From NCBI GenBank assembly GCA_023145965.1, contig JAGLDC010000040.1, positions 1 to 50,599 of the forward strand: a stretch of 50,599 nt of DNA. The letters run 5' to 3'. The translations under genes and the position numbers were made by a program. Origin of the DNA: a bacterium (GTDB lineage: Bacteria; UBP14; UBA6098). The notes below the pieces were generated by a model. The model made no database searches and was not told the origin of the DNA. It saw only the letters and a program-made list of their open reading frames with translations. Below, one piece after another: positions 2-28,990 of this stretch; within the stretch, counting starts at the first letter, position 1, and each line of letters begins with the position of its first letter.

Positions 2-1240
2 CCACATCAGATACTCTCAACCTTGAAGAAGATATTCGAATCTGACAGGATAGTCGGCCAACAGCTTACCCGCGATTATACCTCGGAATACCGAGATATG
101 GTTACACGCCCCTCGCAGAAGGCAACCCCCCGTCAGTGGCTCGATTTAGCCTATTGGCTCGCCGAGTGGGATGTCATTTTTGATAACCACCCAGAGCTCG
201 GCTTGACTCAGACCCATAGGGAATTCCGCAGGGAATGTAACACCGAATTTGGGAGATATATCGAATCCAATTATGAAAAATGGGTATGGAGTGATCCCGA
301 TCAACGGCCCATGCTCTCTGTCGATGTTGGTGCGAATAGTGTTATTCCAGCGTTAGCAGCGGGCGAGAAGGTCTTTTTTGTGGTGATTGACTGTATGCGC
401 CTCGATCAATGGTTATCCGTTGAAAGGATGCTTTCAGATTATTATAATGTTAGTACTGAAGTTTTCTTCTCGCTATTACCCTCGGCGACACCGATTGCCC
501 GAAATGCAATATTCAGTGGCCTTTTTCCTTATGATATTTCCAAGAGATACCCCGAGTTATGGATAGACCCGACCGAGGACTCCACTTCCCGCAATCGTTA
601 TGAACATCAGCTTATGGATAAGCAGATAGCGCAAAATGGTATAAGGCTTAAAGGGGACACGAAATATATCAAAATTCTTGATCCCGAAGAGGGCGAAAGT
701 CTTGTGTATCGTCTGAAAAGCTATCTTTCTGCGCCAATGACAAGTGTTGTAGCCAATTTTCTCGACATTCTCGCGCATAGCAGAGCGGCAAGCGAGGTTC
801 TCAGGGAGATATCTCCGGACGAATCGGCCTATCGAAGTGTGATGAAGACTTGGTTTGCTCACTCGAGTTTGCTCAAGACGCTTATCGCGATTGCTGACGA
901 GAATGTTACAGTTATTATCACTACCGATCACGGGAGCACAATTGGTAGGCGCGGAACAAAGGCATTCGGCAAAAAAGACACCTCGACTAACCTTCGATAT
1001 AAGTATGGAGATAACATTAACTGTGAGGATCGAGGTGGAATCTTCATTCGCAACCCAAAAGACTGGCGTTTACCTAGTTTCACAAAAACGACTAATTATA
1101 TTATAGCCAAAGAAGACTATTATTTTGTATATCCGACACATTTCTCGCAGTTCGAACGGCAATATAAAAATAGCTTCCTTCATGGTGGTATAAGCCTCGA
1201 GGAAATGGTAGTTCCATTAGCAATTCTTCGACCCAAATGA
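2..1240 (+). CDS. porX: PorX-like response regulator, PglZ (alkaline-phosphatase-like) domain; 5' end cut by window
   Basis: Seen: the frame is open to the first bases of the window, so the TTG at 23 is internal and the receiver domain lies outside. The first residues (QILSTLKKIFESDRIV) match the receiver-to-linker junction of PorX. The PglZ domain fills about residues 110-405 counted from the TTG, with the metal and active-site motifs IDCMRLDQW (122-130), SATPIARNAIFSG (154-166), DILAHSR (248-254), TTDHGS (300-305) and HGG (387-389). Known: PorX is the response regulator of the PorX-PorY system of Bacteroidota. It controls type IX secretion genes, and its PglZ domain binds zinc and cleaves oligoribonucleotides. 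The stop overlaps the tsaE start (ATGA), and porX-tsaE adjacency is familiar from Bacteroidota. Inference: it regulates export of the many sorting-domain proteins in this window. An unrelated PglZ protein is unlikely given the linker and motif match. Confidence 0.85.
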   Translation, partial: PHQILSTLKKIFESDRIVGQQLTRDYTSEYRDMVTRPSQKATPRQWLDLAYWLAEWDVIFDNHPELGLTQTHREFRRECNTEFGRYIESNYEKWVWSDPDQRPMLSVDVGANSVIPALAAGEKVFFVVIDCMRLDQWLSVERMLSDYYNVSTEVFFSLLPSATPIARNAIFSGLFPYDISKRYPELWIDPTEDSTSRNRYEHQLMDKQIAQNGIRLKGDTKYIKILDPEEGESLVYRLKSYLSAPMTSVVANFLDILAHSRAASEVLREISPDESAYRSVMKTWFAHSSLLKTLIAIADENVTVIITTDHGSTIGRRGTKAFGKKDTSTNLRYKYGDNINCEDRGGIFIRNPKDWRLPSFTKTTNYIIAKEDYYFVYPTHFSQFERQYKNSFLHGGISLEEMVVPLAILRPK

Positions 1241-1680
1241 TATCCGAGGTCGAAATTATAACTCACTCGGCTGAAGAATCCCTCCAGTTTGGCAAAAAAA
1301 TAGCGGAAAAGCTCAGTCCCGGGGATGTTGTTGCGTTTTACGGTGGCCTCGGGGTGGGTAAGACCACTATGATAAAGGGTATGGCAAGGGCATTCGGAAT
1401 AGACTCGACTGAGGTTTCGAGCCCAACATTCGCGCTGATACACGAATATCCCGGTGTTAAAACTATTTATCACATAGACCTTTATCGACTGGATAAAAAA
1501 GAAGAAATAGCCCAATTAGGGCTTTGGGAGCTTTTCGATGGAGAGGGTATTTCTCTGGTGGAGTGGGCGGAAAAAGGAGAATTGTTCTTACCCGAAAGAA
1601 CTATTCGTGTGAATATTCAGAGTCTCGGCGATAACGAAAGAAAAATAGTCGTTCAGCAACAGTCAAGAGGTGTAGGATAG
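1237..1680 (+). CDS. tsaE: TsaE, tRNA threonylcarbamoyladenosine biosynthesis ATPase
   Basis: This is the ATPase subunit of the bacterial t6A37 synthesis complex (TsaB-TsaD-TsaE) in the cytoplasm. The 147 aa are full length for the family. The Walker A is GGLGVGKTT (36-44), followed by the family signatures SSPTFALIHEY (61-71), HIDLYRL (79-85) and VEWAEK (108-113). The ATG at 1237 overlaps the porX stop by four bases (ATGA), so translation is probably coupled. A 48-bp gap separates it from the next gene. Nothing looks unusual. Confidence 0.95.
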   Translation: MISEVEIITHSAEESLQFGKKIAEKLSPGDVVAFYGGLGVGKTTMIKGMARAFGIDSTEVSSPTFALIHEYPGVKTIYHIDLYRLDKKEEIAQLGLWELFDGEGISLVEWAEKGELFLPERTIRVNIQSLGDNERKIVVQQQSRGVG

Positions 1681-1728: not shown

Positions 1729-3669
1729 ATGAGTAAAAAAAATCGAATAATATTGGTTTTGAGTGCGATCATAGCAGTTTCCGCGATGGCAAACATAGCT
1801 AAAATCGAACCTTCGCTTCTCGATGCTGAAAATGATTCTCTTTTAGTATGGGTCTTTTTTCAAGATAAAGGTCTAGGGAATAGGAATATCGCATCTATCG
1901 CTCGTTCTACATTGTCAAATCGAGCTATCGAGCGCAGGATAAGTGCCGATGTGGAGTTCGATATATATGATGTGCCTGTAAATAATATATATGTGGAGGA
2001 AGTTGTTAACCTTGGCGCACATTTCCGAAGGCAAAGCCGATGGTTAAATGCTGCTTCTTTTGCAATGAATCAAACAACGGTGAACCGGATAGCCGAACTC
2101 GAGTTTGTTAAAGAGATACGCGCTATAAGGACGTATCGGAGGCCGCTCGAACCGACTACGAGATTGAGACCCTTTGAGGATGACACACTCACCGATTCGT
2201 TTTATGGCCCCACTTTCCCGCAACTTGCGATGCTTGGCGCTACTCATTTACACGAGATGGGTTATGCCGGGCAGGGAGTGCTTGTGGGAATACTCGATTC
2301 CGGTTTCCGACTTACGCATAGAGCATTCGATAGCCTGAATATCATCGCGCAATATGATTTCATGCATAACGATACCAGCATCGATTATGACACGCTCGCA
2401 GGGGACACCGATTTCTATGGTTTCCGGCATGGGACTTATTGTCTCGGTGCGATAGCAGCTTATTCGCCGGGAGAGGTTATTGGCGTTGCATATCATGCCT
2501 CGGTTGCGCTTGCAAAAACCGAGGATGTAGATAGTGAATATGTAACCGAGGAGGATAACTGGGTTGCCGGAATGGAGTGGCTCGATTCTATCGGTGTGGA
2601 TATTACCTCGAGTAGTCTTGGTTATTCGGATTTCGACGCCGATACACCATATACATTGGCCCACCTCGACGGCAACACTATGCTCACAACCATAGCCGCA
2701 GATATTGCCGCCTCACGCGGTATTTGTGTTATTAATTCCGCTGGTAACGAGCGGACAAATCAGTCCTGGCCAACACTGATATCCCCCTCCGATGGTGATT
2801 CTGTGCTTGCTGTGGCAGCTGTCGGATACGATAGAGTTTTCGCGCCATTTTCTAGCCCCGGGCCTACCGCCGATGGTAGGATTAAACCAGATGTTTCGGC
2901 TGTGGGTTACGGGAATATCTTGGTTAATCCCTATGCCAATGAAGGCTATACCTCGGGTTCAGGAACTAGTTTTTCCTGTCCGCTTATTGCAGGTCTTTGC
3001 GCAGTAGTTAAAAGCGCAAACCCCGATCTTTATGGATACAACCTCGCGATGGCTGTGCGCTCGAGTGGTGACCGCGTAAGAGCCTATGACCCAATATATT
3101 CGGCGGATTCCGCCGATTTTGACTATGGCTGGGGCATCCCGCAGGGACCGGTAGCAGCAGGATTTACCACAGGATTTTACGGTAGAGCTATCGATGCTCA
3201 ATCCGGTAATATCATCGCCAACAAAGAGATTAGCTTTATTTATTTCGATACAAACATAGTGTTGACAACCGACACCTTCGGTATCTTTGTCGAACCGATG
3301 GCTGAGATGGGCGCCGTGTTATCCCTCTTAATTCCGGGCTATGCCTTCTCTTTAGACTACGCTGTCGATGGTCTGGGACATGCGGTTAGATTCAACCGCC
3401 TCGGGCAAGGACAACAGCTTCAAGTTTTCCCTAATCCAGCGAACGAATGGATAAAAGCTGTGGCGTATATTGGCCAGAGCGCTAGGTTTACAGTATGGAC
3501 GACTTCGGGCGAGCTTGTCCACGATTATAGCTGGGCATTGGCTGAGAAGCTTCAATATCTCTGGGATTTGAATAATAACGATAACCTCGCGTTAGCCAAT
3601 GGAATTTACATAGTAAGATTGGCTACTGAGGATGATTCGGTAATCGAAAAAATCGCCATTGTCCGCTAA
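1729..3669 (+). CDS. Secreted subtilisin-family (S8) serine peptidase with C-terminal sorting domain
   Basis: The N-terminus (KKNRIILVLSAIIAVSAMA) is a signal peptide. Its end, AVSAMA, recurs in the giant protein at 13188. Residues about 35-140 look like an S8 propeptide. The catalytic triad is D190 (VGILDSGF), H234 (YGFRHGTY) and S414 (SGTSFSCP), with the oxyanion Asn in INSAGNE (N340). From about 480 on there is a small beta-rich domain, and the last roughly 85 residues form a T9SS-like sorting module (VFPNPANEW, ending NGIYIVRL...KIAIVR). The protein is therefore expected to be exported and anchored or released at the cell surface. The start at 1729 follows a GGAAGAAGG-like Shine-Dalgarno, and the stop overlaps the next start by one base. 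All catalytic residues are present, so activity is likely; the substrate is unknown. Confidence 0.92.
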   Translation: MSKKNRIILVLSAIIAVSAMANIAKIEPSLLDAENDSLLVWVFFQDKGLGNRNIASIARSTLSNRAIERRISADVEFDIYDVPVNNIYVEEVVNLGAHFRRQSRWLNAASFAMNQTTVNRIAELEFVKEIRAIRTYRRPLEPTTRLRPFEDDTLTDSFYGPTFPQLAMLGATHLHEMGYAGQGVLVGILDSGFRLTHRAFDSLNIIAQYDFMHNDTSIDYDTLAGDTDFYGFRHGTYCLGAIAAYSPGEVIGVAYHASVALAKTEDVDSEYVTEEDNWVAGMEWLDSIGVDITSSSLGYSDFDADTPYTLAHLDGNTMLTTIAADIAASRGICVINSAGNERTNQSWPTLISPSDGDSVLAVAAVGYDRVFAPFSSPGPTADGRIKPDVSAVGYGNILVNPYANEGYTSGSGTSFSCPLIAGLCAVVKSANPDLYGYNLAMAVRSSGDRVRAYDPIYSADSADFDYGWGIPQGPVAAGFTTGFYGRAIDAQSGNIIANKEISFIYFDTNIVLTTDTFGIFVEPMAEMGAVLSLLIPGYAFSLDYAVDGLGHAVRFNRLGQGQQLQVFPNPANEWIKAVAYIGQSARFTVWTTSGELVHDYSWALAEKLQYLWDLNNNDNLALANGIYIVRLATEDDSVIEKIAIVR

Positions 3670-13187: not shown

Positions 13188-16100
13188 ATGAAAAAGGTCG
13201 GATTTGTCGTTATAGCGGCCATTTTAGCCGTTTCTGCTATGGCTGGAGTCCATATGGATAAAGCTGTGAGCGCGATGACTTATGTAACCGATCCAGCTAA
13301 TGGGTTATATAATCCCGTCGAGGGATTACCGTGGGTTAATGGTGTTAATTCACCTACTGCGGCAGCACCAGCGCTGGACAATCAGTCGCCATCGTATCTC
13401 GGAGCCTATTTCTATTCGACTGCCGCATTAATCGCAGGTATGCATGCAACCGGTGTTAACACCGACTGTGCAGACAATGCGATTGAGAGGGTGTTCATCT
13501 GGAATTACAACAGCACTGGACATCCCGTTGCAGGCGTCGAACCATGGTGGAACGAAAATACCGGTATGCTGGGTTTCGTCCCGGATAGCATGATCATGTG
13601 TGATGCCCTTATTCCATGGCGTCTCGATCCGGCAATGGCTATGCCGGGTAGTGTTCATGAAATTTATCTCGAGAAAGTGCTTTGGAGTATGTATTTTCTC
13701 ACTATCAGCGGGGAAATAGAGTACACACCGTATATCGCGAAAACCCTTCGCAGCATTCGGAATAATCCCACTTTCTTCAATGGCGGGACTGGCGCGATTA
13801 AATACGATAATACGGATAACCTCTATCTTACAGCCCTTTGGGGGCTTGTTCTAGAAAGCTACACGAGGTCATGGGAGCTTTATCCCGTCCGTGAACGCGC
13901 GATCCGACCCCCGGTTCTCGATTATGACTGGACCTATGAGTCTGAAGCAGCATGGCTTTATGTTCAAGCGATGATGAGCTATTATTTCGGTGTGACTCTA
14001 CCGGGGTGGTGGAGCGATTTTCATTGTCCTCCCAGCGCTACTATGGCGCCTATGGATGCCGCACGCGGACTCGAAAGGTGGGAGTATCTTCCGATTATGA
14101 TGTTCGCCGCTATTTCCGGAAACACAACGGTTGCTGAAGACCTATGGGATGACAATTTAGACGACGTAACGCCTCAGCAGTGGAGACAGGATGTCCGTGA
14201 TTATTTCTGGACAGGACCACTCTTCGATGGAACGCGTTGTGTTTATGATCCTCTTGGAAGATGGCCCGGGATTACAAGCCATTACGATATTGCAAATGTC
14301 GAGATGTATATGGCCACCGAAGATGCCAAGTATGCTGAGAGAATAATCGAGGTCGAAACCGATTATTGGGATCCTAATCAGTGGAGTGGTGATTACTACG
14401 TTCATAGTGGACCCATGTATAATCCCACAGTGATTTGGAATGGTCTTCATGCTTGGGCTTTAGCTCATGTGCCTTCGGTTGAAATTACCGGAATAACGAG
14501 TAATCTACCGAGTCTTGGCATTTTGCCTTATGACTACAATGCCAACACCGGTCAGGATCATGTCGTTACCGTTCGCGTTACTAATACCGGTCTCGTGCCC
14601 GTTGACGACCTTGTTCTCGAATTCGACGAGGTCTATTTCTCCGGCACACGTTCGGATATGGTAGCGGCTCCGAGGATTCCAGTTGGCGCTTATGTCGATG
14701 TGACTTACGATGTCGGTGGTCCTGGCATGGCCGGCGATCACTCGATAGATTGTGATTTTACAGTCGCCAGCGCCGCACATGTCGATTACACTGTTATTGA
14801 TGACGATCTTTTTATAAATGTTCAAGATCCAGCTCAAGTGGATGTTGTTTTCTGTGGCGGAAGCCCGGAAAGCGCGCCTCTCAATCCGTTTATCACTATC
14901 GGCCAGGAATTCGAGTTCGAGGTCGAGATTTGGAATAACGGCGGCGCTACGATTCGCGAGGTCGAGATCGATCTTACGCAATCCAGTCCATACGGCCTTA
15001 TCTTAGATTTCCCCGATGGAACGCATTTCTCCGGGTTGGTCGAAATCGCCGGTGGAACTTTTGGAAGCGTTCTTTTCCGCGCTATCGCTCCATTGGGAGT
15101 CGGCGGGATTATTGGCGACGACATCCATGTCGACGTCGATCTGGTTCGCGCGGTGGACGAGAACACGCGCACCGATATCGTTTTCGGGATTCTTACCGAC
15201 GACGAGGAGGATTTCGATATTCAATATCCTCCGTTGCTCACGGTTACCAATATAAATTCCGCGCCGTTCTGGCTTAACGCAACCAATACCGTCGATGTTA
15301 CGGTTGCGATAAGCAATGCGGCCGGCGATTATGCTACCGCAGATTCTATCGACGTTTATAATCAAATGGTCGAATTTGTGGCTTCGGTAGTCGGTGGCGT
15401 TGGCGGTGCCGATCTTCCGAGCGCGGCACCGGCGAATATTCCTGCGGGAAATGCCGCCAATGTGGTATTCACAGTCGATAACGATGGCGTTACCGAAAAT
15501 GCTATCGTTGATATAGAGTATACCGGAAATTACCACGATGGTAATGACGGTGGAAACGCCGAACCAATGGCCAGCCCGCTCACCGGTACCGATGCAGCCG
15601 GAATGGGAATCGATATTCTCGCTCCGACGGTGAATCCGGTCGCTCCGGTCGCAGGCGCCACATGGCCTGGCGACAATGTCGTCCAGATCGACGCGAATGA
15701 TAATCTAAGCGGCGTCAATAGCGTGACGATTTATCTTCGCGACGAGGTCGGCGGACTGTATTGGAACTTCGCAACTGGAGTTTGGCAAGCTGGTTTCACT
15801 AGAAGAACTTTCACTTACAATGCTGTTTCCGGTTATTGGGAGAGAACTTTAGCCAACCATCCTTCGGGCGAATACATTATGTATATCGACTGCGATGATA
15901 ATGCCGGCAACGATATGCCGACCGATTATGTCCCGATTGGCGATGTCGCATATATACACATCGTAGAGATCTGGACTGATCTTTGGAGAGGAAGTATTGC
16001 AGCTCCGTTGCCCCATGGTTCAACTTGGGATTATGAGTGCGATTGGAACTGGGCCTATCGCTGCAGTGTGATGGTCTATAATCCGAATGCCTTTATCGTC

Positions 16101-19100
16101 GAGGATGTTGTTGTCGATCTATACAGCATTTCGCCTTATACGCAGGCGGGCATTGCCGATTTGACCGGCCCGATCGACATTCCGGCTCTTGAGTATATTT
16201 GGTATGTGTTCGATGTAATCGCGCCGGATTATAATTTCATCGATTCGCTTTATGCGCATACATCCGATGGAACATACGACAGCGGCAAACCTGTTGCTGA
16301 ACAGATCACAGACAATGACCTTCTTATAAAAGTCGAACAACCGGCTAATTTCGCTATTGTCTCCACATGGGTGGAACCGAGCGAAATTAACAACTGGCTT
16401 GGCGATTTGGCTGACGATGTCGAGGATACTGCTCTCGTGACACTCAGACAGCAATTCCACTATTATGTTACCGTCCGCAATGACGGCAAAGATCAGATCG
16501 ACAGCGTTCGCGTATCTCCATTCCAGGCTCCGGCTATGGGTAGCATAATTATTAGGATTTCGCCGACCGCTTGGATATACAACTTCGAAGCCGGTGAAGA
16601 GCAGACCTTCGAATTCCAGGTAACCGCCTCGGCGGGTGACCCCGGTGATTGTCCTGTTCAATGGGATCAGGATTTAGGTCTCAGCCTCATTGGCGCATCT
16701 TTTACTGCTCACAACCATGAGCCCGGCTATGTTATCGGTCTCTCATCGGTAATCGACGACCGCGCGCCGATAGGGATTCAACAGCATCCGGTTCTCGTGA
16801 CCGATGATTGGGCTATCGAAGGAACATCCATTCCGGCCGAGACCACATGGATTAATATGACCAATACAGTGGCGTTTGATCTTTGGACGATCAATCCGCT
16901 GGCGATGTGCTGTGGGACACCGTATAACGATCGTGCCGCAGTCGATAGGATTCTCAGCGATCCGATTCATTATCCAGCTCTTCTTGAGTTCTGGGATTTC
17001 TCCGATCCCGATCCTTGGGATCATGTTCAGACCGACGAACATATCGATGGGCTTATGGCTCATACGGTCACGGAAGATATGATCTGGCCTGGCGAGATGA
17101 CACAACTTACCTGGGGTCTTTCGTGGGATGGCACTTATGGTGGCACCTCCGAGGGTGTCTGGTGGGTCATCGATCGCGTTTTCTATGGTGATAATAACAA
17201 TCAACTTATTTTCTACGGGATGAATAGCCCGCATGTTGATACCTTCTCGAGAGTTATGGGTATCGATGTTTCGAGGCCGGAATGTGAGATTATCTGGCCG
17301 ATAGATTCCGTCTATCAAAACTTCCCGGAGACTCTTCTCGTTCTCGCTAATGACAATCTATCCGGCCTAGTTCCGGAAAGCGTAAAGGTTCAGTTTGAGG
17401 ATCCGACCGGCGCTATCTATAACGGGACGGTTTGGGGAACAGGAAGCTGTTGGTTTACTGCTCATTACGATATTACCTATGGTGCGGATACCTTCTGGTA
17501 TGACACACCGACACCGACACAGGAAGGTTGCTGGACTTACAGTGCCTACTCTTATGATATTGCCGGTAACCAGTCTTTAATCGACCAAGTCGATTTCATC
17601 TGGGACGCTACCGAGCCGACCTGCGATATCATCTATCCCGCTCCCGGATATTATAGCTACACAGCGACAAATATTTGGGATCAACTCATCGAGATTTGGG
17701 CGTTAGACGACACCACTGCCGGCGCGGCCTGCGTGTCTCATGTCAAGAGCGTCTATGTCGCTATCTTCGATATTATCGATAGCGTCTGGTGGGACGGTTC
17801 CGGTTGGTTAGCTTCCGGGACGGCCTACTGGTTGCCTTGCGATCCCACAGGGGATCCTGAGGTTTGGGATTATGACGGCTATACCGATATGAGCACTGTT
17901 ATTCTGGAAGTATATTCCTACTGCAGAGACAGCGCTGGCAACTTCGGTCCGCCTTGCGATACACTTCATGATGTTGTTGTTGATGAGGACAAACCGAACA
18001 GCGTAGTTACTAATCGCTTTGGAGTCGAATTACCCAATATGTGGTTCGTCGATTTAGCGGATTGGAACACGGATATGCAGGATAATTTCTGGGGCGACGC
18101 CGAGGATTATCTCACGCGCGTGGATTCTGTTCGTTATTCCGTCTGGGATAGTTTGAACAACAGCTATTGGAACGGTGCGGGTTGGGATGGTTCTTCCGGA
18201 GAGATCTGGAATACTCCCAATCAATATAATTGGGATGGTGGCGGTTGGTTTACCCCTGATTCTCCACCTCATGCTCCCGATATTGACTTAGGTATAGGTA
18301 AAGAGCTTGAGTGGCGCACTTATTTCGCGAATCCGGGATTCGGCTACTACAAGGTTCGCAGCAAGTCTTATGATGATCTCGGTCACATAGAACCTGGATT
18401 CGATGCGCAGAACGAAAAGATTCTTATCTTTGATGACTGCGCGCCGGTTATCCATCCGAGATATCCCGATGCTGGAGCTGTGTATTTCATATGGGATTGG
18501 GTAGATAGCTTTGTCGTCTATGCCTATGACAGCTGCGGCTGGAACATGGGCGGCGGAATGGGCGCACCTGTCGATGAGGTTAGATTCTGGATTATCAATC
18601 CCGATGGTAAATATTGGGGCTGGGTGCCGATTTTAGGCTGGCGTTGGTGCGATTTCGAATTGTCAATACCTGGTGTTCAGGTTAACGACAGCCTATGGAA
18701 ACCGTTTAATATCCCATTGATCTCCCAGGAGGGAACTTACACGATGTTCGTTCGCGCGAGGGACTTCAATGGCAATACCGTTCTGAATGCATGGAGCTGG
18801 ACGATTACGGTTTCCGGTGAGTTCATCACTATAGAAACTATTCCGAACGATCCGGGCCGCGACTGGTATTTCGTCGATGAAGACTTCACACTTCGCGTAA
18901 TTGCATGGGCGCATCCAGGCGTTCCAGATGTTAGTTTCGCGCACGAGTTCTTCTTCGGTGATAACATGCCGCTACCCGAGAACTTCTCTATCGATACACC
19001 CGGCCCGTATTTTGCGTTCCGTGGAACTCTCGATGTTGTTGGTTCTTGTGATGTTCCTGTTCTCGGGCTAGAGGCCTTTGTCGATGCACCTTCGAGTTTC

Positions 19101-21038
19101 TTGCCAAGGGCTTCGACATCCCCGATAGATATAATACAACTCGTTGACGATGATCTTGGTGGGTTCGTTATGGATAATTCGGCTGCGAATGGTTACTGGG
19201 ACGACCAAGGTAACTGGATGTGGTTGCATCACAATCGCACTACGCAGGACCCGGATTATTCCGGCCCCGACCCGATCGACACAATGTCCGTTAAAATTGT
19301 CGGTTATCAATATTGCCGCGACACCGATGTTTCCGCAGCTCCTGGCGATACTAACTGGCAACCGCTGGTTATTGTCGGCAACGCGAGCGATGGCGATAGC
19401 GTGAAACTCGAATTCGGAAATGCTAACACATTCATCGTTTATGATTACAGCATGATTGTCGAGGTTCAGGTTCAGGGAATCGGTGTTCATATCTTTACAG
19501 ATAGAATACCTCTAGGTAACGGTGTTCCAATCGATAATATCCCTCCGCAAACGGTAGGCGATGTTACTATAGGTGCTGTTGGAGGCGCAATTCGTCTCGA
19601 TTGGCCCGAAGCTAGACTCGGTTCCGACCTTGGCGCGACTCCAGAAATCAACCCCGAAATCAATATCGTTTATGATGTTTATCGCTTCACCGATCCGTTA
19701 ACCGATCTCGATGCGAGAGCGGCAACCCCGACCTTCGTCGGTGTTACCGATACTTTCCTCGTCGATGCAGCGGGTGCGGGCGATGTAACGACGCCTTACT
19801 ACTATTCGGTTAAGGCTCGCGATACTCATGGCGAGATTGTTGAGCAAATGAGCCCGGATTACACCGCTTATGTTGGTGAGGTCGATTATATTATCGATGC
19901 TGGTTGGAATCCGATCGCGTATCCATTGCCGGTTGCGGGTCTTGTTGCTCCAGCCGACTATGTCGCGCGCCTCGGTGCACCATTGGGCGATATTTACGCC
20001 TATGCTAATCCTCCGGCGCTCTGGGAAGAAATTCTTGTCGGTCCGTTCGGTCGTGATCTAGTTGATGACGGTTCCGAAGATCTCCTTGCTTATTCAGCTT
20101 GGACCGGAACGGCAACTTGGACAGGTAACCTACCTGCCGACCTTTACATCGATTATAACCTCGCCATCGGTTACAATGGTATCATGATCCCGCTTATCCG
20201 CGACGATCTTATCATGGCTAGCGATCTTTATTACGAGCTTGAAGGCCTCGGCCTCTCGCCTGTTACTATTGCTCGCATGGTCCCAAGCGATGGCTGGAAT
20301 GATATTGTTGTCCATGAAGGCGCTATCTATTTCGATTTCCCAATCTATCCGGGTCAAGCTTATTTGGCATGGGTCAATGTTGCGGGAACCTGGCCGGAGT
20401 ATCCAGCTCATCCTCGTCCGGCAAAATCTGCTAGAACAGTTATGCCTACTCGCACAAGCGATGCTATTCCGACTCCGAAGTGTGGTGCGATACCGATTGT
20501 CGGCGAAGACAAAGCCGATATTGAAAGAATAAGCGCCCGCGCTATATGGGGCGAGCAGGAACAGACCTGTTCCACTGATGGCAACCTCGTTAAAATCGAG
20601 TTTAGCAAGTTCGAGGGAATCGCCACTGGCGCGGAAGTTAGTGTTGAGGTTGTGGGAGACGACGGCATTTACTACGGTGAGACAGTTATCACAGTTGGTG
20701 AGGATCCGATTACGGTTGCGTCAACCTTGACATTGGCCAAGGTTGCGCCGTCTTTGCCGGAACAGTTCGCTCTTCATGGAAATGTTCCTAACCCGTTCAA
20801 TCCGGCAACATCCATCGCTTTCGACCTTCCCGAGGAAACTCAGGTGGATCTATCGGTTTACAACATCACCGGCCAGATGGTGCGGAAAGTCGTATCCGAA
20901 AAACTCCCCGCCGGCTACCATCATGTAGTTTGGGACGGTAGAGTTGATAATGGCAGAATAGCTCCTGCGGGTGTGTATTTCTATACTCTTCGCGCTGGGG
21001 ATTTCTCCGCACAGCGTCGTATGATGCTTGTTAAGTAA
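13188..21038 (+). CDS. Giant secreted multidomain surface protein (2616 aa) with sorting domain
   Basis: The signal peptide MKKVGFVVIAAILAVSAMA matches that of the subtilase. Residues about 22-435 form a Trp/Tyr/Met-rich, probably helical domain I do not recognise (possibly an alpha/alpha-toroid; inference). From about 440 on there are CARDB-like and Ig-like beta modules. At least five carry the pattern D(N)LSG-V...YWNG..W...DxAGN, for example near 845-930, 1385-1465, 1490-1590, 1610-1700 and 1760-1870. An FN3-like module (about 2115-2220) and an AGWNPIAYPLP module (about 2230) precede the C-terminal sorting domain (last roughly 90 aa: FALHGNVPNPFNPATSIAFD, then VVWDGR, VYFYTLRAG, MMLVK). It should be exported to the surface; S-layer, adhesin or glycan-binding roles are all possible. 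A perfect-consensus promoter and GGAGAGGAG Shine-Dalgarno suggest high expression. Confidence 0.88.
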   Translation: MKKVGFVVIAAILAVSAMAGVHMDKAVSAMTYVTDPANGLYNPVEGLPWVNGVNSPTAAAPALDNQSPSYLGAYFYSTAALIAGMHATGVNTDCADNAIERVFIWNYNSTGHPVAGVEPWWNENTGMLGFVPDSMIMCDALIPWRLDPAMAMPGSVHEIYLEKVLWSMYFLTISGEIEYTPYIAKTLRSIRNNPTFFNGGTGAIKYDNTDNLYLTALWGLVLESYTRSWELYPVRERAIRPPVLDYDWTYESEAAWLYVQAMMSYYFGVTLPGWWSDFHCPPSATMAPMDAARGLERWEYLPIMMFAAISGNTTVAEDLWDDNLDDVTPQQWRQDVRDYFWTGPLFDGTRCVYDPLGRWPGITSHYDIANVEMYMATEDAKYAERIIEVETDYWDPNQWSGDYYVHSGPMYNPTVIWNGLHAWALAHVPSVEITGITSNLPSLGILPYDYNANTGQDHVVTVRVTNTGLVPVDDLVLEFDEVYFSGTRSDMVAAPRIPVGAYVDVTYDVGGPGMAGDHSIDCDFTVASAAHVDYTVIDDDLFINVQDPAQVDVVFCGGSPESAPLNPFITIGQEFEFEVEIWNNGGATIREVEIDLTQSSPYGLILDFPDGTHFSGLVEIAGGTFGSVLFRAIAPLGVGGIIGDDIHVDVDLVRAVDENTRTDIVFGILTDDEEDFDIQYPPLLTVTNINSAPFWLNATNTVDVTVAISNAAGDYATADSIDVYNQMVEFVASVVGGVGGADLPSAAPANIPAGNAANVVFTVDNDGVTENAIVDIEYTGNYHDGNDGGNAEPMASPLTGTDAAGMGIDILAPTVNPVAPVAGATWPGDNVVQIDANDNLSGVNSVTIYLRDEVGGLYWNFATGVWQAGFTRRTFTYNAVSGYWERTLANHPSGEYIMYIDCDDNAGNDMPTDYVPIGDVAYIHIVEIWTDLWRGSIAAPLPHGSTWDYECDWNWAYRCSVMVYNPNAFIVEDVVVDLYSISPYTQAGIADLTGPIDIPALEYIWYVFDVIAPDYNFIDSLYAHTSDGTYDSGKPVAEQITDNDLLIKVEQPANFAIVSTWVEPSEINNWLGDLADDVEDTALVTLRQQFHYYVTVRNDGKDQIDSVRVSPFQAPAMGSIIIRISPTAWIYNFEAGEEQTFEFQVTASAGDPGDCPVQWDQDLGLSLIGASFTAHNHEPGYVIGLSSVIDDRAPIGIQQHPVLVTDDWAIEGTSIPAETTWINMTNTVAFDLWTINPLAMCCGTPYNDRAAVDRILSDPIHYPALLEFWDFSDPDPWDHVQTDEHIDGLMAHTVTEDMIWPGEMTQLTWGLSWDGTYGGTSEGVWWVIDRVFYGDNNNQLIFYGMNSPHVDTFSRVMGIDVSRPECEIIWPIDSVYQNFPETLLVLANDNLSGLVPESVKVQFEDPTGAIYNGTVWGTGSCWFTAHYDITYGADTFWYDTPTPTQEGCWTYSAYSYDIAGNQSLIDQVDFIWDATEPTCDIIYPAPGYYSYTATNIWDQLIEIWALDDTTAGAACVSHVKSVYVAIFDIIDSVWWDGSGWLASGTAYWLPCDPTGDPEVWDYDGYTDMSTVILEVYSYCRDSAGNFGPPCDTLHDVVVDEDKPNSVVTNRFGVELPNMWFVDLADWNTDMQDNFWGDAEDYLTRVDSVRYSVWDSLNNSYWNGAGWDGSSGEIWNTPNQYNWDGGGWFTPDSPPHAPDIDLGIGKELEWRTYFANPGFGYYKVRSKSYDDLGHIEPGFDAQNEKILIFDDCAPVIHPRYPDAGAVYFIWDWVDSFVVYAYDSCGWNMGGGMGAPVDEVRFWIINPDGKYWGWVPILGWRWCDFELSIPGVQVNDSLWKPFNIPLISQEGTYTMFVRARDFNGNTVLNAWSWTITVSGEFITIETIPNDPGRDWYFVDEDFTLRVIAWAHPGVPDVSFAHEFFFGDNMPLPENFSIDTPGPYFAFRGTLDVVGSCDVPVLGLEAFVDAPSSFLPRASTSPIDIIQLVDDDLGGFVMDNSAANGYWDDQGNWMWLHHNRTTQDPDYSGPDPIDTMSVKIVGYQYCRDTDVSAAPGDTNWQPLVIVGNASDGDSVKLEFGNANTFIVYDYSMIVEVQVQGIGVHIFTDRIPLGNGVPIDNIPPQTVGDVTIGAVGGAIRLDWPEARLGSDLGATPEINPEINIVYDVYRFTDPLTDLDARAATPTFVGVTDTFLVDAAGAGDVTTPYYYSVKARDTHGEIVEQMSPDYTAYVGEVDYIIDAGWNPIAYPLPVAGLVAPADYVARLGAPLGDIYAYANPPALWEEILVGPFGRDLVDDGSEDLLAYSAWTGTATWTGNLPADLYIDYNLAIGYNGIMIPLIRDDLIMASDLYYELEGLGLSPVTIARMVPSDGWNDIVVHEGAIYFDFPIYPGQAYLAWVNVAGTWPEYPAHPRPAKSARTVMPTRTSDAIPTPKCGAIPIVGEDKADIERISARAIWGEQEQTCSTDGNLVKIEFSKFEGIATGAEVSVEVVGDDGIYYGETVITVGEDPITVASTLTLAKVAPSLPEQFALHGNVPNPFNPATSIAFDLPEETQVDLSVYNITGQMVRKVVSEKLPAGYHHVVWDGRVDNGRIAPAGVYFYTLRAGDFSAQRRMMLVK

Positions 21039-21829: not shown

Positions 21830-24800
21830 ATGAGAAAACTTCTCGTTGTTCTAGGTTTATTCATTATTGTGGGTGTTGCGTTGGGTCAACCTGTGACTCC
21901 GCATACCGTTTTCGGTTATTTCGAACGTTTCGAGGGCGACCCTGTTCCCGAAGCGTGTCTTCATGTTCAATTCGATTTCAATGGGCATCATTTCGATGAA
22001 ACCTCCACGGAGTTCATTTACAATGAGAGCACCGGTTTATTTTTCCTTAGAATAAATGATGGTCTTTTCGATGTCGGCGACATGATTACTGTCAGTGTTG
22101 GCGATTCATGTCTCTGGGAGGACCAGACCTACATCGATCTATTCGATCCGGGGCCGGAGACGATTATCGAAACGATAGTTCTTTCTCCGATTTCGGGGCT
22201 CAGGCCTGAACTTCTTGCCGGTTATATGAATCCATTGACAGGCTATGTTACTACCGATTTTGAATTCGGTGTAACCTATGCCTCTAATCCGTGGAATCGT
22301 GCGGCGAACATTATGCAGATTTGGATCGATGGAACACTCTTCTGGAACATGGATAGGGTTAGCTCTGGACCGCCCTCATGGGCAACGGGTGAGGACTATA
22401 TTTATGTTGTCGATGGGCACGATATTGGTAAGGGCGATCATACATATCATTTCTATGCTGAGGATATTTGGGGATTGCCTGTTTGGACTGATCCCGTAGA
22501 TTTCATCATTATGAATACTGCGCCGGAACCGCCTGAGATCACTCTTGGTCCAGAAAATCCGTTTGTGGATGAAGACCTATTCATTACTATAGATGATCCT
22601 TCTTTCGATGAAGATGGCGATGAGATCAACTATTACTACGAGTGGTTCAAGGATGGCGTTCTTATGGACGACCTGTCCGGTTTCATGGAAGATGAACTCG
22701 ATGCTGACAATACTAGAATAGGCGAGAACTGGGAGGTTCAAGTCTATGGTTATGATGGTTACGAGTTTAGTTTCTTTGTTTCGGATGATGTTACAATTAT
22801 TGCTCCAACCTTGACGGATGGCGCTGTCGCGCCGACCACCGGCGACAGATCTACAGTATTTAACTATAGTGTAACCTATACAAATATTCGTGATATCGCG
22901 GCATTCGAGGTTAATCTTATAATCGATGGCGGCGAAGCTGTGGCGATGGAGATGGCGCGTAGTTGGGATGATGGTATCGAATATACCTATGAAACAACGC
23001 TTGCTCTTGGTGAGCATACATTTAGGTTCGAGGGCATGGATATTCTTGGCCACGCCTGTATAGGCGATATTCTCGAACACGATGGCCCGATGGTTGGCAA
23101 CAATCCTCCTACTATAGTAAGTGCATACATTGTTGAGGACCCCTCTCCAGCGACAGTTGTTTCGACTCTTACCGCTGTTGCCACTGGTTGGGACGATGCA
23201 GATGGTGACCCGGAAGGTTACATTTATAACTGGTTCGTCAACGACTTTGAAATCGGCGTTGCTACGGCGACACTTGCCGCGCCGTATTTTGTCAGAGGCG
23301 ATATGGTTTATTGCACTGTAACGCCTTGGGATGGTATCGACGAAGGAACGTCGATAAATACCGACCCGGTTGAAATAGCTAACTCAATCCCTGGTGCGCC
23401 GGCTCTCGATTACACACCGGTTCCAGTATATGATAATGATGATATTGAAATATATGTTGTAGAACCGACTCTCGATGCTGATGATGATGATCTTGATTAT
23501 CATTTTGAATGGACCATCGATGCCGCTGTCGTCGGAGATGATTCCCCGATTCTTGTTGGCGATTTCACGGCTCCGGGCGATTTGGTTCATGTCGATGTTT
23601 GGGCGAATGACGGCTTTGCCGATAGCCCAATCTCGAGCCTCGATATTCCTATCGATTGGCCTTTGCTCTCCGATGGTGCGGTCGTGCCGCTTACTGGCAC
23701 CCCTGTTGAAACATTCAGGTATGAAGTAACATATACTTCTGTGCGCGATATTGCCCCCGGGATGATCAACGCAATTATCGATGGCGAGGAACTGGGCATG
23801 GCTCAGTTCGACCCTGCAGATGCCGATTACACCGACGGTGTTGTTTTCTTCTACGAAACGACGCTTCCGTTCGGCGATCACACTTACGCATTCTCCGGCT
23901 GGGATACCGAGGATAATCAGGCCTTCGGCGAAGAAACTGTTCGCCCCGGCCCGGTTCAGGAGAACGAGGTTCCTGTTATTACTATCATAGAGATCGCGCC
24001 TTATCCGACAGCTATTGAGACCGATATTATCGAGGTTACAGTTACAACCGAGGATGAAGACGGCGATCCTGTTACGCTTACGTATCAATGGTTCAACGAA
24101 CTCGGTGCTATCGATGGCGCAACGAGTAACATACTTTACAGCGACGATTTTGCTAAAGGCGATGTAGTTTGGTGCAATGTCCTGCCATTCGATGGTTGGG
24201 AATACGGTTTGGAAGTGGTAAGCGACGAGGTTACCATTATTAATACACCTCCTGCAATTACATCGGCGAGGATCACCTCAGACCCGGCCGATTGGTTCAA
24301 TAGACTTGCTGTGTTGGTTGCAAATGTTGAAGCTGGCGATGTCGATGGTGATATGCTCACATTCGAGTATGTTTGGTTTGTGAACGATGTAGAGGTTGCT
24401 TGGACGGATTCTAGGCTTGCTAGCGATTATTTCAATCGTGGCGACGAGGTTTATTTTGAGGTTACAGTCACTGATGACAGCGATGAATTTGCGACCATGG
24501 TCTCCGAACCGGTTACAATACTCAATGCTCCGCCGGTGTTTGATCTCGTGGATCTTACCCCGGATGATCCTAATACAACAAACGACCTCGATCTCGATGT
24601 TGTCGTTACCGATGCGGATGATGATGAGCTCGATATAACATACTCCTGGTATTTGAATGATTTGCTTATCGATTGGGTTGAGGATTTCGTTCCACGCCAT
24701 ATGACCGAAAAGGGCCAGAGCTGGGAAGTTTTGGTAACGGCTTACGATGGCATGGGTGGCGAGACCGAGGCTGCCGATGAAGTAATAATTGGCAATTTCA

Positions 24801-27800
24801 TTCCTGAAATTCACGCAATCGTCGAGACCATCGTGGTCTGGAACATTCCTTATTACAACAGAATACCTGCATTCGACGCTGATGTTATTGACAGGCTCGA
24901 ATGGAGTATAATCGAGGGTCCGGAAGGCCTCGAGATCGATCCTTTCACCGGCGATATCTGGTGGACGGAGTTTGATTCGATGGAGTCTCTGGGTGTCTAT
25001 CCGGTGATTATCGAGGTTACTGATGGTGATGATGTTTCTGAAATTGGATTCAATTTCCATCTTTACCCGATGAGTGACGAGCTGTTCGCGCCTCGAAATC
25101 TGGAGGCCCTCAGCGGTTACATGCTTTCGATACCTTCGAGCTGGGATGCCCCGAACCTGTTTGGCACTTCCCCGATTCTTCCGATTACCTTTAATAATTA
25201 CGATGTCGAGCGTTCGACCGATATGGATACCTGGATGTCTGTTGGATCCCCCGCGGGAACCGGTTATGTAGATGCTTCAGTTATGGCTGGAACCATGTAT
25301 TATTATCGCGTTCGCGCGATTTACGAGGAAGACGTCAGCTCGTGGTCGAATATCGATTTTGCGACTGCCGGCACGGTAAACTCTGACATGCTATACTCGA
25401 CCTATACTTATAACGCTCCGCCGGTTATCGACGGCGAGATTTCAAGCGATGAGTGGACCGATGCAACTCAGTTAGCAATCGGCGGCCAGAAATTCTATGT
25501 CAAGAACACTGAGAATATGTTATATCTGGCGTTTATCGATGGCGAGGACGATATGCTCGACACCGACGACGCGTTCTATGTTCAAATTGAAGATAATCAC
25601 AATCTCCGTTGGCCGGCATTAGAGGGCAGTGATGAAGGCGAATACCGCGTTACCGCGCTCGATGATGGCCTTTCTGAGGCAACCTATCAGGGTATCTGGG
25701 GAACATACCCCGGCTCGATAGGAAGAGATCTTCGCGGAGTTAGCGAGGCTGTTTTCGGTGCTGTTGGTGGTGGTGAAGGCAGTGCAGTTATATATGAACT
25801 TGCAATCGAACTTGGAGACGAGTTTGACGCGCAGATTAACAGCGCGATGGGTAACTTAATCGGCTTCCGTTTTGCTATTTACGATGCCGGTAGCTACACC
25901 TGGTCCTACGTCTGGACTACCGGTAGTGTCAATACAAATCCGGAAACCTACGGTAATCTTATGCTCGGTATTGGCGAAGGCGGCCCGGCATTCGATGTTT
26001 GGCCGAGAAGGTTCGAGGTTACGGTTCTTCAAGGTGAATCAGCCGATAGGCCCATTTGGATATCGAATCAGGGCAATGGTGCTATCGATTACGAAATCTT
26101 CGAGACCTATCTTCCGATTTGGGGCCGCGAAGTTAGTCGCGATGCGATGCACCCGGTGCTTCTTTATACAGATGAACAAACAATTGGGATGGATGCCCTC
26201 GATTTCCTCGGCTATGGATATCATGTTGTTCATACCTCTGCGGATTTCGTAAGCCAGCTCGATGCTGACAATTATCTCGCAACGGTTATCACAGTTCAGG
26301 AGGGCTTGAGTCCGGCGGTTCTAGGGGTCTTACAGACCTTTATCGCCGATGGCGGTAAGGCCGTGCTTTCGTGCCCAGACCTCGATGGTCTTTCAGACCA
26401 TTCAATTTGGCCAGCTATTGGTGTTGAGGTCTTCGCTGACCTCGGAGCTATTCCGAGCGCTCTTACATGGGATCTTCCGGGACACCCAATATTCAATACT
26501 CCGCTTGAGGTTCCGCTTTCGGTGGAGACAGTAACGGGTGATTTTGCCGACTATGGTGATGGCCTATTGATGACGACGGGCGTATCTGCAGCGAGCTTCG
26601 ACGAGCTTCCTTATCCCGGTAATTCTGCTATCACACTTGCAGGTGACGAGGCAATGTTCATTAATAGCTTCGTTATCAGCGACGAAATGGATAGCGACGC
26701 AGACGGCTGGACAGATGGAATGGAACTCCTTACAAACGAAATTTATTATGTAATTGGCCTCGAAGATATCCCTTGGCTCTCGGTCGCGCCCAATGAAGGC
26801 ACGCTTTCGAGTCACGAAACCGACGATGGTATGGTTACTTTCGATGCTACCGAATTGGACGAGGGTGACTATAACGGTTGGTTGGTTGCAACCTCGACCG
26901 ATACACGCAATCCGGTCATCCCGGTTCAGTGCATCCTTCATGTCCGTGAACCCGATTATAATCTTGCAACATTTAGTTTCCCGCCGGACCTTCGTATGGT
27001 TATACCGGGAGAGGTTATAAATATGCCGATACGGGTTCGCGGTTTGCATCTCGCACGCGTTACGGAAGTAACGATGACTATTCGCACCAACGATTTCGTT
27101 ATTTCGCCTATGGATGTGATGAGTGAAGATTACGATGTCATGGTTACAGATTATAATATGGATCATATCACTTTCACCATCTCCGATGACTGGATGATGG
27201 ACGATGGTCTTCTCTGTAATGTTCAGTTCCAGGTGAAGCCCCTTGTTCCGGCTGGTGCAACGAGTAATCTTCAAATAGCCTCGGCCGTTATTAATGACGG
27301 CGCATTTATCGATGATATCGAAACAGTCGATGGCCGTGTTATGGTTGCTGCGGGCGAGAACGATTGGCGCGTTATGCTCGATTTCACGCATGGCGACTTC
27401 GAGGATAACCTCTATATTGGAGTTAATCCGCTTGCAACGGACATGTTCGACGATGGACTCGATATGATTAGCGACGAGATTGGCGCTTGGTTCGATCCGT
27501 TCAGCGATATTCATGAATTCGATCCGGCCAACTCGCAATTGGATGGCGATATTCGTAACTCGACAGATGATCTCATAACCTGGGTGATTCCGGTTGGTGA
27601 TTCCGCTGGCAAACTCGAGTGGTCATTCCGGGATACTGACACTTTGGCCGTTATGGGAAGCCTATTCCTTAACGGTATAATCGACATGAAAACTACCTCG
27701 GTTTATTTCTACGATAGCGGCGAGACCATATATATTTCATACAGACTCGCAGGGGATTCGCCGTTCGATGTTCACCTGTATCCGGGTTGGAACATGGTTT

Positions 27801-28861
27801 CTTTGCCGATTACTATTCCAGTGATGGAACCGACGGTTGAGAATATTTACCCCGCTGTGGCTTATGCTTATTATTATGATCCATTAACCGCAATGTGGGT
27901 CGAGACCGATATTATCGAACCGGGCGTAGGATATATCGTTCTTTCAACAACTGAACAGCATTATACGCTTTGGGGCCGTCCGGTCGATGGTTTCACAGCG
28001 AATATAATTAATGGTTGGAATCTTATTGGTTCTGTTTATAGCAATGCCGATTTTTCGTCGCCAAACACAACACCTGCAGGTGCTGTAATGGCGTTCCCGC
28101 AACATGCCACACATTGGGATGTTATGCTTGGGAATTATCAATACACTGATATGCTCGAAAGTGGCAAGGGATTCTTTATTGCCGCGAGTATGGATGCTGT
28201 TCTCGAAGTTCCTGGAACTGCTGGTAGTAAGGCAATCGTGCCCGAGAAGGATTTCTCGATTGGGCTTAGAGTTATCTCGGATAAAACCGAAACCTCCCTT
28301 TTAATAGGTGAAGCGAGTGATAACTGGTTTGTTCCAATACCGCCTGCAGTCAATGGAACTCATCCCAGCGCTTGTCTTTCTATTGATGGTTGGAATGCCT
28401 CCGAGGTGTATTTAACCAAATCTGGTTCGTGCTATCTCACGGTAAACGGTCCTGCTACAATAGTTGTAGAGGGAACGAATACTGAATTAGGTATCGAAGT
28501 AGAAGGCACGATAGTTCCGCTCGATGGAACTATCGAGCTACCTTGCGCTGGCGCGTATAAGGTTGTGTTCGGTAATCTTCCCAGGGTGTTCGCCCTATAT
28601 GGGAATGTGCCAAATCCATTCAACCCGACTACAGCCATCGCCTTCGATTTACCTGAGGCTTGCGATGTCCACCTCGAGGTTTTCGACATGCTCGGACGCC
28701 ATGTTAGGACATTGGAAAACAACAAACTCGATGCCGGTAGGTATTCTGTGGTCTGGGATGGCCGAGATGCCAAGGGGCGTGAAGCTTCGTCCGGTATATA
28801 TTTGTATCGTATAGATGCGGGGAATTATAAAGCCTCGCGCCGTATGCTGCTACTTAAGTAA
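21830..28861 (+). CDS. Giant secreted multidomain surface protein (2343 aa) with sorting domain
   Basis: Signal peptide to about residue 19. The shared N-terminal module (about 20-120; TPHTVFGYF) follows. Three copies of a roughly 100-aa module (LxDGAVxPxTG...VTY...RDIA...IIDG...YETTL..G.HTY.F; about 125-225, 325-420, 605-705) alternate with Ig-like modules of the DxDGD...Y.WFVND type. Then come FN3 (about 1085-1180), a CBM9/DOMON-like domain (VIDGEISSDEW, about 1195-1390), a BACON-like domain split by a roughly 220-aa insert (about 1393-1710), a cohesin-like domain (about 1705-1840) and paired GWNMVSLP/GWNLIGSV modules (about 1985-2130). The sorting domain (LYGNVPNPFNPTTAIAFDLP) is last. AAAGGAGGG precedes the ATG. 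Its role is unknown; surface glycan binding or an adhesin is the likeliest reading. Confidence 0.88.
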   Translation: MRKLLVVLGLFIIVGVALGQPVTPHTVFGYFERFEGDPVPEACLHVQFDFNGHHFDETSTEFIYNESTGLFFLRINDGLFDVGDMITVSVGDSCLWEDQTYIDLFDPGPETIIETIVLSPISGLRPELLAGYMNPLTGYVTTDFEFGVTYASNPWNRAANIMQIWIDGTLFWNMDRVSSGPPSWATGEDYIYVVDGHDIGKGDHTYHFYAEDIWGLPVWTDPVDFIIMNTAPEPPEITLGPENPFVDEDLFITIDDPSFDEDGDEINYYYEWFKDGVLMDDLSGFMEDELDADNTRIGENWEVQVYGYDGYEFSFFVSDDVTIIAPTLTDGAVAPTTGDRSTVFNYSVTYTNIRDIAAFEVNLIIDGGEAVAMEMARSWDDGIEYTYETTLALGEHTFRFEGMDILGHACIGDILEHDGPMVGNNPPTIVSAYIVEDPSPATVVSTLTAVATGWDDADGDPEGYIYNWFVNDFEIGVATATLAAPYFVRGDMVYCTVTPWDGIDEGTSINTDPVEIANSIPGAPALDYTPVPVYDNDDIEIYVVEPTLDADDDDLDYHFEWTIDAAVVGDDSPILVGDFTAPGDLVHVDVWANDGFADSPISSLDIPIDWPLLSDGAVVPLTGTPVETFRYEVTYTSVRDIAPGMINAIIDGEELGMAQFDPADADYTDGVVFFYETTLPFGDHTYAFSGWDTEDNQAFGEETVRPGPVQENEVPVITIIEIAPYPTAIETDIIEVTVTTEDEDGDPVTLTYQWFNELGAIDGATSNILYSDDFAKGDVVWCNVLPFDGWEYGLEVVSDEVTIINTPPAITSARITSDPADWFNRLAVLVANVEAGDVDGDMLTFEYVWFVNDVEVAWTDSRLASDYFNRGDEVYFEVTVTDDSDEFATMVSEPVTILNAPPVFDLVDLTPDDPNTTNDLDLDVVVTDADDDELDITYSWYLNDLLIDWVEDFVPRHMTEKGQSWEVLVTAYDGMGGETEAADEVIIGNFIPEIHAIVETIVVWNIPYYNRIPAFDADVIDRLEWSIIEGPEGLEIDPFTGDIWWTEFDSMESLGVYPVIIEVTDGDDVSEIGFNFHLYPMSDELFAPRNLEALSGYMLSIPSSWDAPNLFGTSPILPITFNNYDVERSTDMDTWMSVGSPAGTGYVDASVMAGTMYYYRVRAIYEEDVSSWSNIDFATAGTVNSDMLYSTYTYNAPPVIDGEISSDEWTDATQLAIGGQKFYVKNTENMLYLAFIDGEDDMLDTDDAFYVQIEDNHNLRWPALEGSDEGEYRVTALDDGLSEATYQGIWGTYPGSIGRDLRGVSEAVFGAVGGGEGSAVIYELAIELGDEFDAQINSAMGNLIGFRFAIYDAGSYTWSYVWTTGSVNTNPETYGNLMLGIGEGGPAFDVWPRRFEVTVLQGESADRPIWISNQGNGAIDYEIFETYLPIWGREVSRDAMHPVLLYTDEQTIGMDALDFLGYGYHVVHTSADFVSQLDADNYLATVITVQEGLSPAVLGVLQTFIADGGKAVLSCPDLDGLSDHSIWPAIGVEVFADLGAIPSALTWDLPGHPIFNTPLEVPLSVETVTGDFADYGDGLLMTTGVSAASFDELPYPGNSAITLAGDEAMFINSFVISDEMDSDADGWTDGMELLTNEIYYVIGLEDIPWLSVAPNEGTLSSHETDDGMVTFDATELDEGDYNGWLVATSTDTRNPVIPVQCILHVREPDYNLATFSFPPDLRMVIPGEVINMPIRVRGLHLARVTEVTMTIRTNDFVISPMDVMSEDYDVMVTDYNMDHITFTISDDWMMDDGLLCNVQFQVKPLVPAGATSNLQIASAVINDGAFIDDIETVDGRVMVAAGENDWRVMLDFTHGDFEDNLYIGVNPLATDMFDDGLDMISDEIGAWFDPFSDIHEFDPANSQLDGDIRNSTDDLITWVIPVGDSAGKLEWSFRDTDTLAVMGSLFLNGIIDMKTTSVYFYDSGETIYISYRLAGDSPFDVHLYPGWNMVSLPITIPVMEPTVENIYPAVAYAYYYDPLTAMWVETDIIEPGVGYIVLSTTEQHYTLWGRPVDGFTANIINGWNLIGSVYSNADFSSPNTTPAGAVMAFPQHATHWDVMLGNYQYTDMLESGKGFFIAASMDAVLEVPGTAGSKAIVPEKDFSIGLRVISDKTETSLLIGEASDNWFVPIPPAVNGTHPSACLSIDGWNASEVYLTKSGSCYLTVNGPATIVVEGTNTELGIEVEGTIVPLDGTIELPCAGAYKVVFGNLPRVFALYGNVPNPFNPTTAIAFDLPEACDVHLEVFDMLGRHVRTLENNKLDAGRYSVVWDGRDAKGREASSGIYLYRIDAGNYKASRRMLLLK

Positions 28862-28920: not shown

Positions 28921-28944
28921 GGGGTCGAAATGCGACCCCGTTTT
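28921..28944 (+). terminator. Second hairpin with short T-run
   Basis: GGGGTCG (28921-28927), loop AAATG, CGACCCC (28933-28939), then GTTTT. With the terminator just before it, this forms a tandem pair between two giant genes. Confidence 0.6.
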
Positions 28945-28990
28945 GATAAATATTTTTTGCAATTTCAATCCCCCCGGTAAAGGAGGAACA

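Follow-up and report, generated by a model that had tools for sequence, protein, structure and literature searches.

A sensor kinase gene beside porX in candidate phylum UBP14 and its possible role as a general PorX partner in FCB bacteria

We find that porX, which encodes a response regulator of the type 9 secretion system (T9SS), lies next to a sensor histidine kinase gene in a candidate-phylum bacterium and its relatives, and that an orphan ortholog of this kinase accompanies PorX and the SprA channel almost perfectly in sampled Bacteroidota. It is likely, in our judgment, that an ancestral kinase-PorX two-component system is tied to the SprA translocon across FCB phyla, and that the kinase PorY is a patchy and probably later partner. 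The new kinase is probably the true partner of PorX far more widely among bacteria than the one known to date. To our knowledge, research on PorX control of type 9 secretion has dealt almost exclusively with P. gingivalis and F. johnsoniae. The P. gingivalis porX and porY genes are orphans. There is debate over what the signal and the substrate are and how PorX acts. The kinase-porX pair conserved in other phyla points to a candidate PorX partner that is testable in a gliding bacterium, and the predicted periplasmic PAS-like domain of the kinase is where to look for the signal.

Identity of the interrupted porX gene

The window (the whole stretch of DNA analysed, 50,599 nucleotides) is an entire contig, C40, and for this reason the porX frame is open at its first base: the first 1240 bases hold the 3' four-fifths of the gene. 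A first-pass annotation of the window had named this PglZ protein PorX, and both profile and structure searches agree. The frame at 2-1240 (+ strand), which comprises residues ~105 to the end with a three-helix linker and a PglZ/alkaline-phosphatase effector domain, scores 446 bits against NF052313 (T9SS_RR_PorX, cut-off 300), with a match that begins at profile position 105 and reaches the profile end. Five PorX crystal-structure chains (PDB 7pv7/8ted) align along its full length, with E down to 8e-87. The annotation had allowed that the upstream sequence might lack a receiver domain, but one lies at the end of C39, a contig of the same assembly: this contig stops at most a few bases away from a 98-aa receiver (C39:11561-11854, + strand, locus L133, outside the window) that scores 137.7 bits against PorX positions 2-93 and E=1e-21 against Pfam Response_reg. 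The split of porX is a contig break only, its N-terminus exists on C39, and the two halves are joined only across an assembly gap of ~27 missing bases, as measured against the UBA6098 ortholog.

The alkaline-phosphatase-type zinc site and catalytic Thr are complete in the host PorX (T, D, H, D, H, H). On the + strand of the window we located (i) the metal-site Asp of IDC (389..391), which is also kept in the P. gingivalis and F. johnsoniae structures; (ii) the catalytic Thr, T271 of F. johnsoniae PorX (488..490); (iii) the zinc-site Asp (764) and His (776), D360/H364 of F. johnsoniae PorX (764..778); (iv) the metal-site Asp-His of TTDHG (926..931); and (v) the His of the C-terminal HGG motif (1181..1183). 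Each of these residues, like the receiver Asp, Thr and Lys, is conserved in 78/78 full-length PorX loci. The host receiver carries the acidic pair, the phospho-Asp and the Thr, and its Lys position falls in the contig gap. In F. johnsoniae PorX, T271V abolishes phosphodiesterase activity, and changes at the catalytic Thr or D360/H364 abolish the zinc-dependent phosphodiesterase activity (PMC11320123).

The PglZ domain is common to PorX and to BREX-type PglZ phosphatases, and the curated BREX-3 PglZ model does give 95 bits. That score is set against a cut-off of 250, however, while the PorX model gives 446 bits against 300; the protein also has a receiver half and a PorX-specific C-terminus, and no BREX genes occur among the seven neighbouring proteins scanned. 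We consider a BREX identity hardly conceivable and rule it out on these scores and the receiver half. We read the gene as a genuine porX, whose product joins a receiver to an effector of the zinc phosphodiesterase/alkaline-phosphatase type. This protein shares receiver, linker and effector, and all phosphorylation, metal and catalytic residues, with the P. gingivalis and F. johnsoniae proteins. The host PorX is a new member of this known family, and no relative beyond its own UBP14 group exceeds 54% identity to it. Unlike in those two species, the host gene adjoins a sensor kinase and tsaE, in a genome where GldL and GldM were not detected.

Placement of the host

Among 84,980 species, the nearest PorX is that of UBP14_UBA6098 (87% identity), followed by a bin labelled Zixiibacteriota SpSt-1142 (83%) and then by a relative at 54%. 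In the PorX tree the window groups with UBA6098 and SpSt-1142 with a support of 100, and NCBI lists UBA6098 among candidate phyla. The host is therefore outside Bacteroidota, as the first-pass annotation had suspected, and belongs to candidate phylum UBP14.

A sensor kinase directly upstream of porX

The gene directly upstream of porX in the host encodes a sensor histidine kinase (C39:10282-11571, + strand, locus L133, outside the window), which follows serS (C39:8998-10275, + strand, same locus) and whose frame overlaps the porX start by 11 bases. Its recognizable domains are HisKA (22.6 bits, below that model's own cut-off) and HATPase_c. The predicted topology, which we read from the helices and strands of a structure model, places two membrane helices around a periplasmic PAS-like domain, followed by HisKA and HATPase_c. 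The H-box reads MAKETAHQLGTPLSSL, with a consensus of MAxETAHQ(L/F)G(T/S)Px(S/T)(S/A), and a fold search with a model of the kinase gave no match more specific than generic histidine kinases, for example WalK and HK853. The same kinase lies directly upstream of porX in 18 published loci from UBP14, Zixibacteria, Latescibacterota, Eisenbacteria and related bins, where the genes mostly run serS, histidine kinase, porX, tsaE; a partial 19th copy is found in locus L040. In the PorX tree, this arrangement occurs only within a single clade of 21 rows. A literature search, which was not complete, found no report of PorX in UBP14, Zixibacteria or Latescibacterota, and none of a kinase gene beside porX or of this kinase as a PorX partner.

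The first-pass annotation had further suggested that PorX control would predate Bacteroidota if the host is a candidate phylum. We could not support conservation of the P. gingivalis style of control: the host genome (G000) has no PorY above cut-off (best NF052314 match 133 of 350 bits), GldL and GldM went undetected, and a different kinase stands beside porX. PorY (NF052314; PGN_2001) and the new kinase are both membrane histidine kinases of ~430 aa and both proposed PorX sensors. They differ in the H-box, which is ASHELQTPLAI in PorY matches, and in gene position, since the new kinase gene is beside porX and the PorY gene is an orphan. The new kinase is also absent among the PorY matches listed and far below the PorY cut-off. 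From these comparisons we conclude that the porX-adjacent kinase is not PorY. PorY itself is above cut-off in only 12/66 genomes, and it is missing or below cut-off in some genomes that keep the new kinase, including the small, few-kinase Bacteroidia genomes G085 and G157.

These observations lead us to propose a two-component system in which PorX is the response regulator and the membrane histidine kinase encoded immediately upstream is its sensor. Phosphotransfer, signal, effector substrate and effect on secretion are here what we infer from sequence. The kinase would sense a periplasmic signal via its PAS-like domain and autophosphorylate on the His of MAxETAHQ; the phosphate would then pass to the receiver Asp of PorX and switch the effector domain. 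The output of PorX would serve the SprA/PorV type 9 translocon of the host and its exported sorting-domain proteins. In Bacteroidota, an orphan copy of the same kinase, encoded elsewhere on the chromosome, would also be the partner of PorX, with PorY as a patchy and probably later one. P. gingivalis apparently has only one orphan kinase (PMC5706477), so the new kinase may be missing there, in which case PorY may have taken over.

Co-occurrence of the kinase, PorX and SprA in Bacteroidota

The search for kinase copies away from porX covered Bacteroidota only: we built a profile, A1, from the 19 porX-adjacent kinases and ran it against 118 Bacteroidota genomes. A1 found one ortholog in each of 92 genomes, at 300 bits or more, with the next best match at 139 or less. 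These 92 are the same 92 genomes that carry PorX, and the 26 without PorX also lack the kinase (the last six of the 26 follow by count). SprA is present in 91 of the 92, the exception being G046, and in 0/26 of the others. The co-occurrence is not phylogenetically independent: the 26 negative genomes are all small and probably belong to a single class, Chlorobia; one loss, or a few, may therefore account for the perfect table. A sample of 158 Bacteroidia gives weaker support than the 118-genome table: 142 genomes have both kinase and PorX, 4 have neither and 12 are discordant (Fisher p=0.0014); seven of the discordant genomes have the kinase without PorX and five the reverse, and incomplete bins are possible among them. 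The PorX and kinase trees agree with r=0.88, a value that we do not use as proof because common descent alone predicts such agreement.

In all 60 Bacteroidota kinase loci that we inspected, no receiver gene lies within ~1.5 kb of the kinase. Kinase and PorX are thus orphans in Bacteroidota and neighbours in other phyla, a classic sign of a cognate pair. The same data can be read more narrowly. The kinase could pair with PorX only in the UBP14/Zixibacteria/Latescibacterota/Eisenbacteria clade, to which the operon arrangement is indeed restricted, while its Bacteroidota ortholog serves another regulator and PorY-type kinases serve PorX; the co-occurrence would then be joint loss in reduced Chlorobia, consistent with PorX-negative genomes that are all small and probably of one class. 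Purified P. gingivalis PorY does phosphorylate PorX in vitro (PMC4800418). We nonetheless regard this narrower reading as unlikely, given the many PorX-bearing genomes without PorY above cut-off, G085 and G157 among them, and the 60 kinase loci without an adjoining receiver gene. We continue to favor the kinase as a PorX partner in both settings. More tentatively, as a possibility that we neither lean on nor set aside, the porX-adjacent kinase may be the ancestral and general cognate PorX kinase of FCB bacteria including Bacteroidota, with PorY a lineage-specific addition and with PorX, SprA and PorV predating the GldL/M motor. The binding of PorX to PorL/GldL, a bench result in P. gingivalis (PMC5005315), would in that case have arisen later, in a regulator whose first role was with the translocon.

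Two minor observations concern genomes at the edges of these samples. G253, a small genome with PorX and no kinase, was considered as a Porphyromonas and rejected, since its PorX resembles the F. johnsoniae protein more than that of P. gingivalis. PorX is highly divergent (~247 bits) in three Bacteroidia genomes, G214, G246 and G274. The kinase copies of two of these diverge the most, and in the third no kinase exceeds the threshold, a hint that divergent PorX and kinase drift together.

Gene neighbourhoods of porX

The gene 3' of porX is tsaE, the t6A37 tRNA modification ATPase (1237..1680, + strand; Pfam TsaE E=9e-39, TIGR00150 121.7 bits), as the first-pass annotation had recognized. Its ATG and the porX stop codon share bases in ATGA (1237-1240, read from the sequence), an overlap that suggests translational coupling of the two genes. 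We collected 80 PorX loci spanning UBP14, Zixibacteria, Latescibacterota, Eisenbacteria, KSB1, Calditrichota, Ignavibacteria and Kryptonia. In 73 of them, tsaE is directly 3' of porX on the same strand, and the remaining seven include one locus that ends too early to tell. The linkage that had been supposed to extend beyond Bacteroidota is FCB-wide. It is looser in Bacteroidota, where tsaE falls within 500 bases in 16/30 loci of a PorX-model sample drawn nearly all from GldL-bearing genomes. A tsaB-like and then a rimI-like gene, identified by sequence reading, often follow porX-tsaE. On the other side, the gene directly upstream of porX in ~34/80 loci, of the Ignavibacteria type, belongs to a ~2300-aa family and is sprA; by coordinates, sprA is also directly upstream of porX in 18/118 sampled Bacteroidota genomes.

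Nearly all bacteria carry tsaE. This bears on the possibility that PorX here no longer serves secretion and instead has a role in tRNA modification or translation, with the T9SS link incidental. The neighbours invite the thought: the adjacency of porX and tsaE exceeds any porX-T9SS adjacency, tsaB-like and rimI-like genes often lie 3', and serS is upstream in the kinase-linked clade. Yet a gene so widespread contrasts with PorX, which tracks SprA closely, and sprA itself directly precedes porX in the loci counted above. We therefore consider a translation role quite improbable and retain the link of PorX to the SprA translocon.

T9SS components and candidate cargo in the host

The first-pass annotation had called for a search of the genome for T9SS genes, with a complete lack of core genes as the contrary outcome. 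The core is not lacking: SprA and PorV were found, while PorY fell below cut-off and GldL and GldM were not detected. The host SprA is a 2016-aa frame on contig C74 (624.5 bits, cut-off 200). About 20 proteins match the PorV family, the best at 211 bits against a cut-off of 90; one of the family that we checked against the strict PorV equivalog scored 83 of 250 bits, below that cut-off. Profile searches of the host gave no GldL and no first GldM domain, with models that find both in canonical genomes and that miss, or score weakly, the divergent forms in G154; divergent copies may thus be present in the host. Compared with the Bacteroidota T9SS, the host thus has the same SprA/Sov translocon, PorV family and sorting-domain cargo, including a C25 peptidase on C39, but no GldL/GldM motor detected with the models used.

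Across FCB genomes with PorX, SprA is present in 42/45, with no convincing SprA in G003, G009 and G017. The conserved kinase-porX pair in other phyla also suggests that PorX and the SprA channel arose before Bacteroidota parted from the other FCB lineages, although the papers we found mostly describe T9SS as a Bacteroidota-specific system. T9SS has been suggested earlier in other FCB phyla, in a list without UBP14, Zixibacteria or Latescibacterota (PMC11285876), and a 2020 survey listed components of T9SS, but not PorK-N, for Bacteroidota incertae sedis (PMC7323717). Our literature search found no report of T9SS in Zixibacteria.

The sorting domains that the first-pass annotation had noticed hold up in four window proteins, all on the + strand, which pass the TIGR04183 cut-off of 23 bits; three of the four match FlgD_ig equally well or better. 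The candidate cargo proteins are (i) a subtilase (S8; 1729..3669, Peptidase_S8 E=3e-35) with a C-terminal T9SS type-A sorting domain at ~3424-3660 (24.6 bits); (ii) a 2616-aa protein (13188..21038) with a C-terminal sorting-type domain at ~20787-21026 (29.7 bits; FlgD_ig 38.6 bits); (iii) a 2343-aa protein (21830..28861) with such a domain at ~28610-28849 (28.3 bits; FlgD_ig 39.4 bits); and (iv) a 1994-aa protein (28943..34927) with one at ~34676-34915 (32.1 bits; FlgD_ig 35.8 bits). Directly after these giant proteins, the window encodes an Omp85/POTRA protein (35151-36806). About 1 kb from serS-kinase-porX, C39 carries a gene for a 1195-aa C25 (gingipain-family) peptidase with a propeptide and a T9SS sorting domain (Por_Secre_tail; L133:4361-7945, G000:C39, - strand). 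This C25 protein, the only one scored, reaches 56 of 420 bits against the PorU model.

We note several observations on the motor genes and on PorV. G154, a Bacteroidota genome with SprA and PorX, contains an apparent divergent gldL-gldM operon (L258:1331-4136, G154:C1, - strand), and after it comes a 311-aa gene, possibly gldN. The apparent pair scores 31.6 bits for GldL and is missed by the GldM domain PF12081, so motor surveys with these standard models undercount. Weak GldM matches in G042, G039, G013 and G026 were rejected, as they look like MotA/ExbB-type, flagellar, Skp-like or TPR-like proteins (Pfam-confirmed for G042 only). Finally, PorV-like domains lie within frames of ~740-950 aa (query positions ~42-326) at G000:C37:56755-57630 and similarly in G001-G014; these long frames recur in UBP14 and Zixibacteria genomes and are possible fused or extended PorV proteins.
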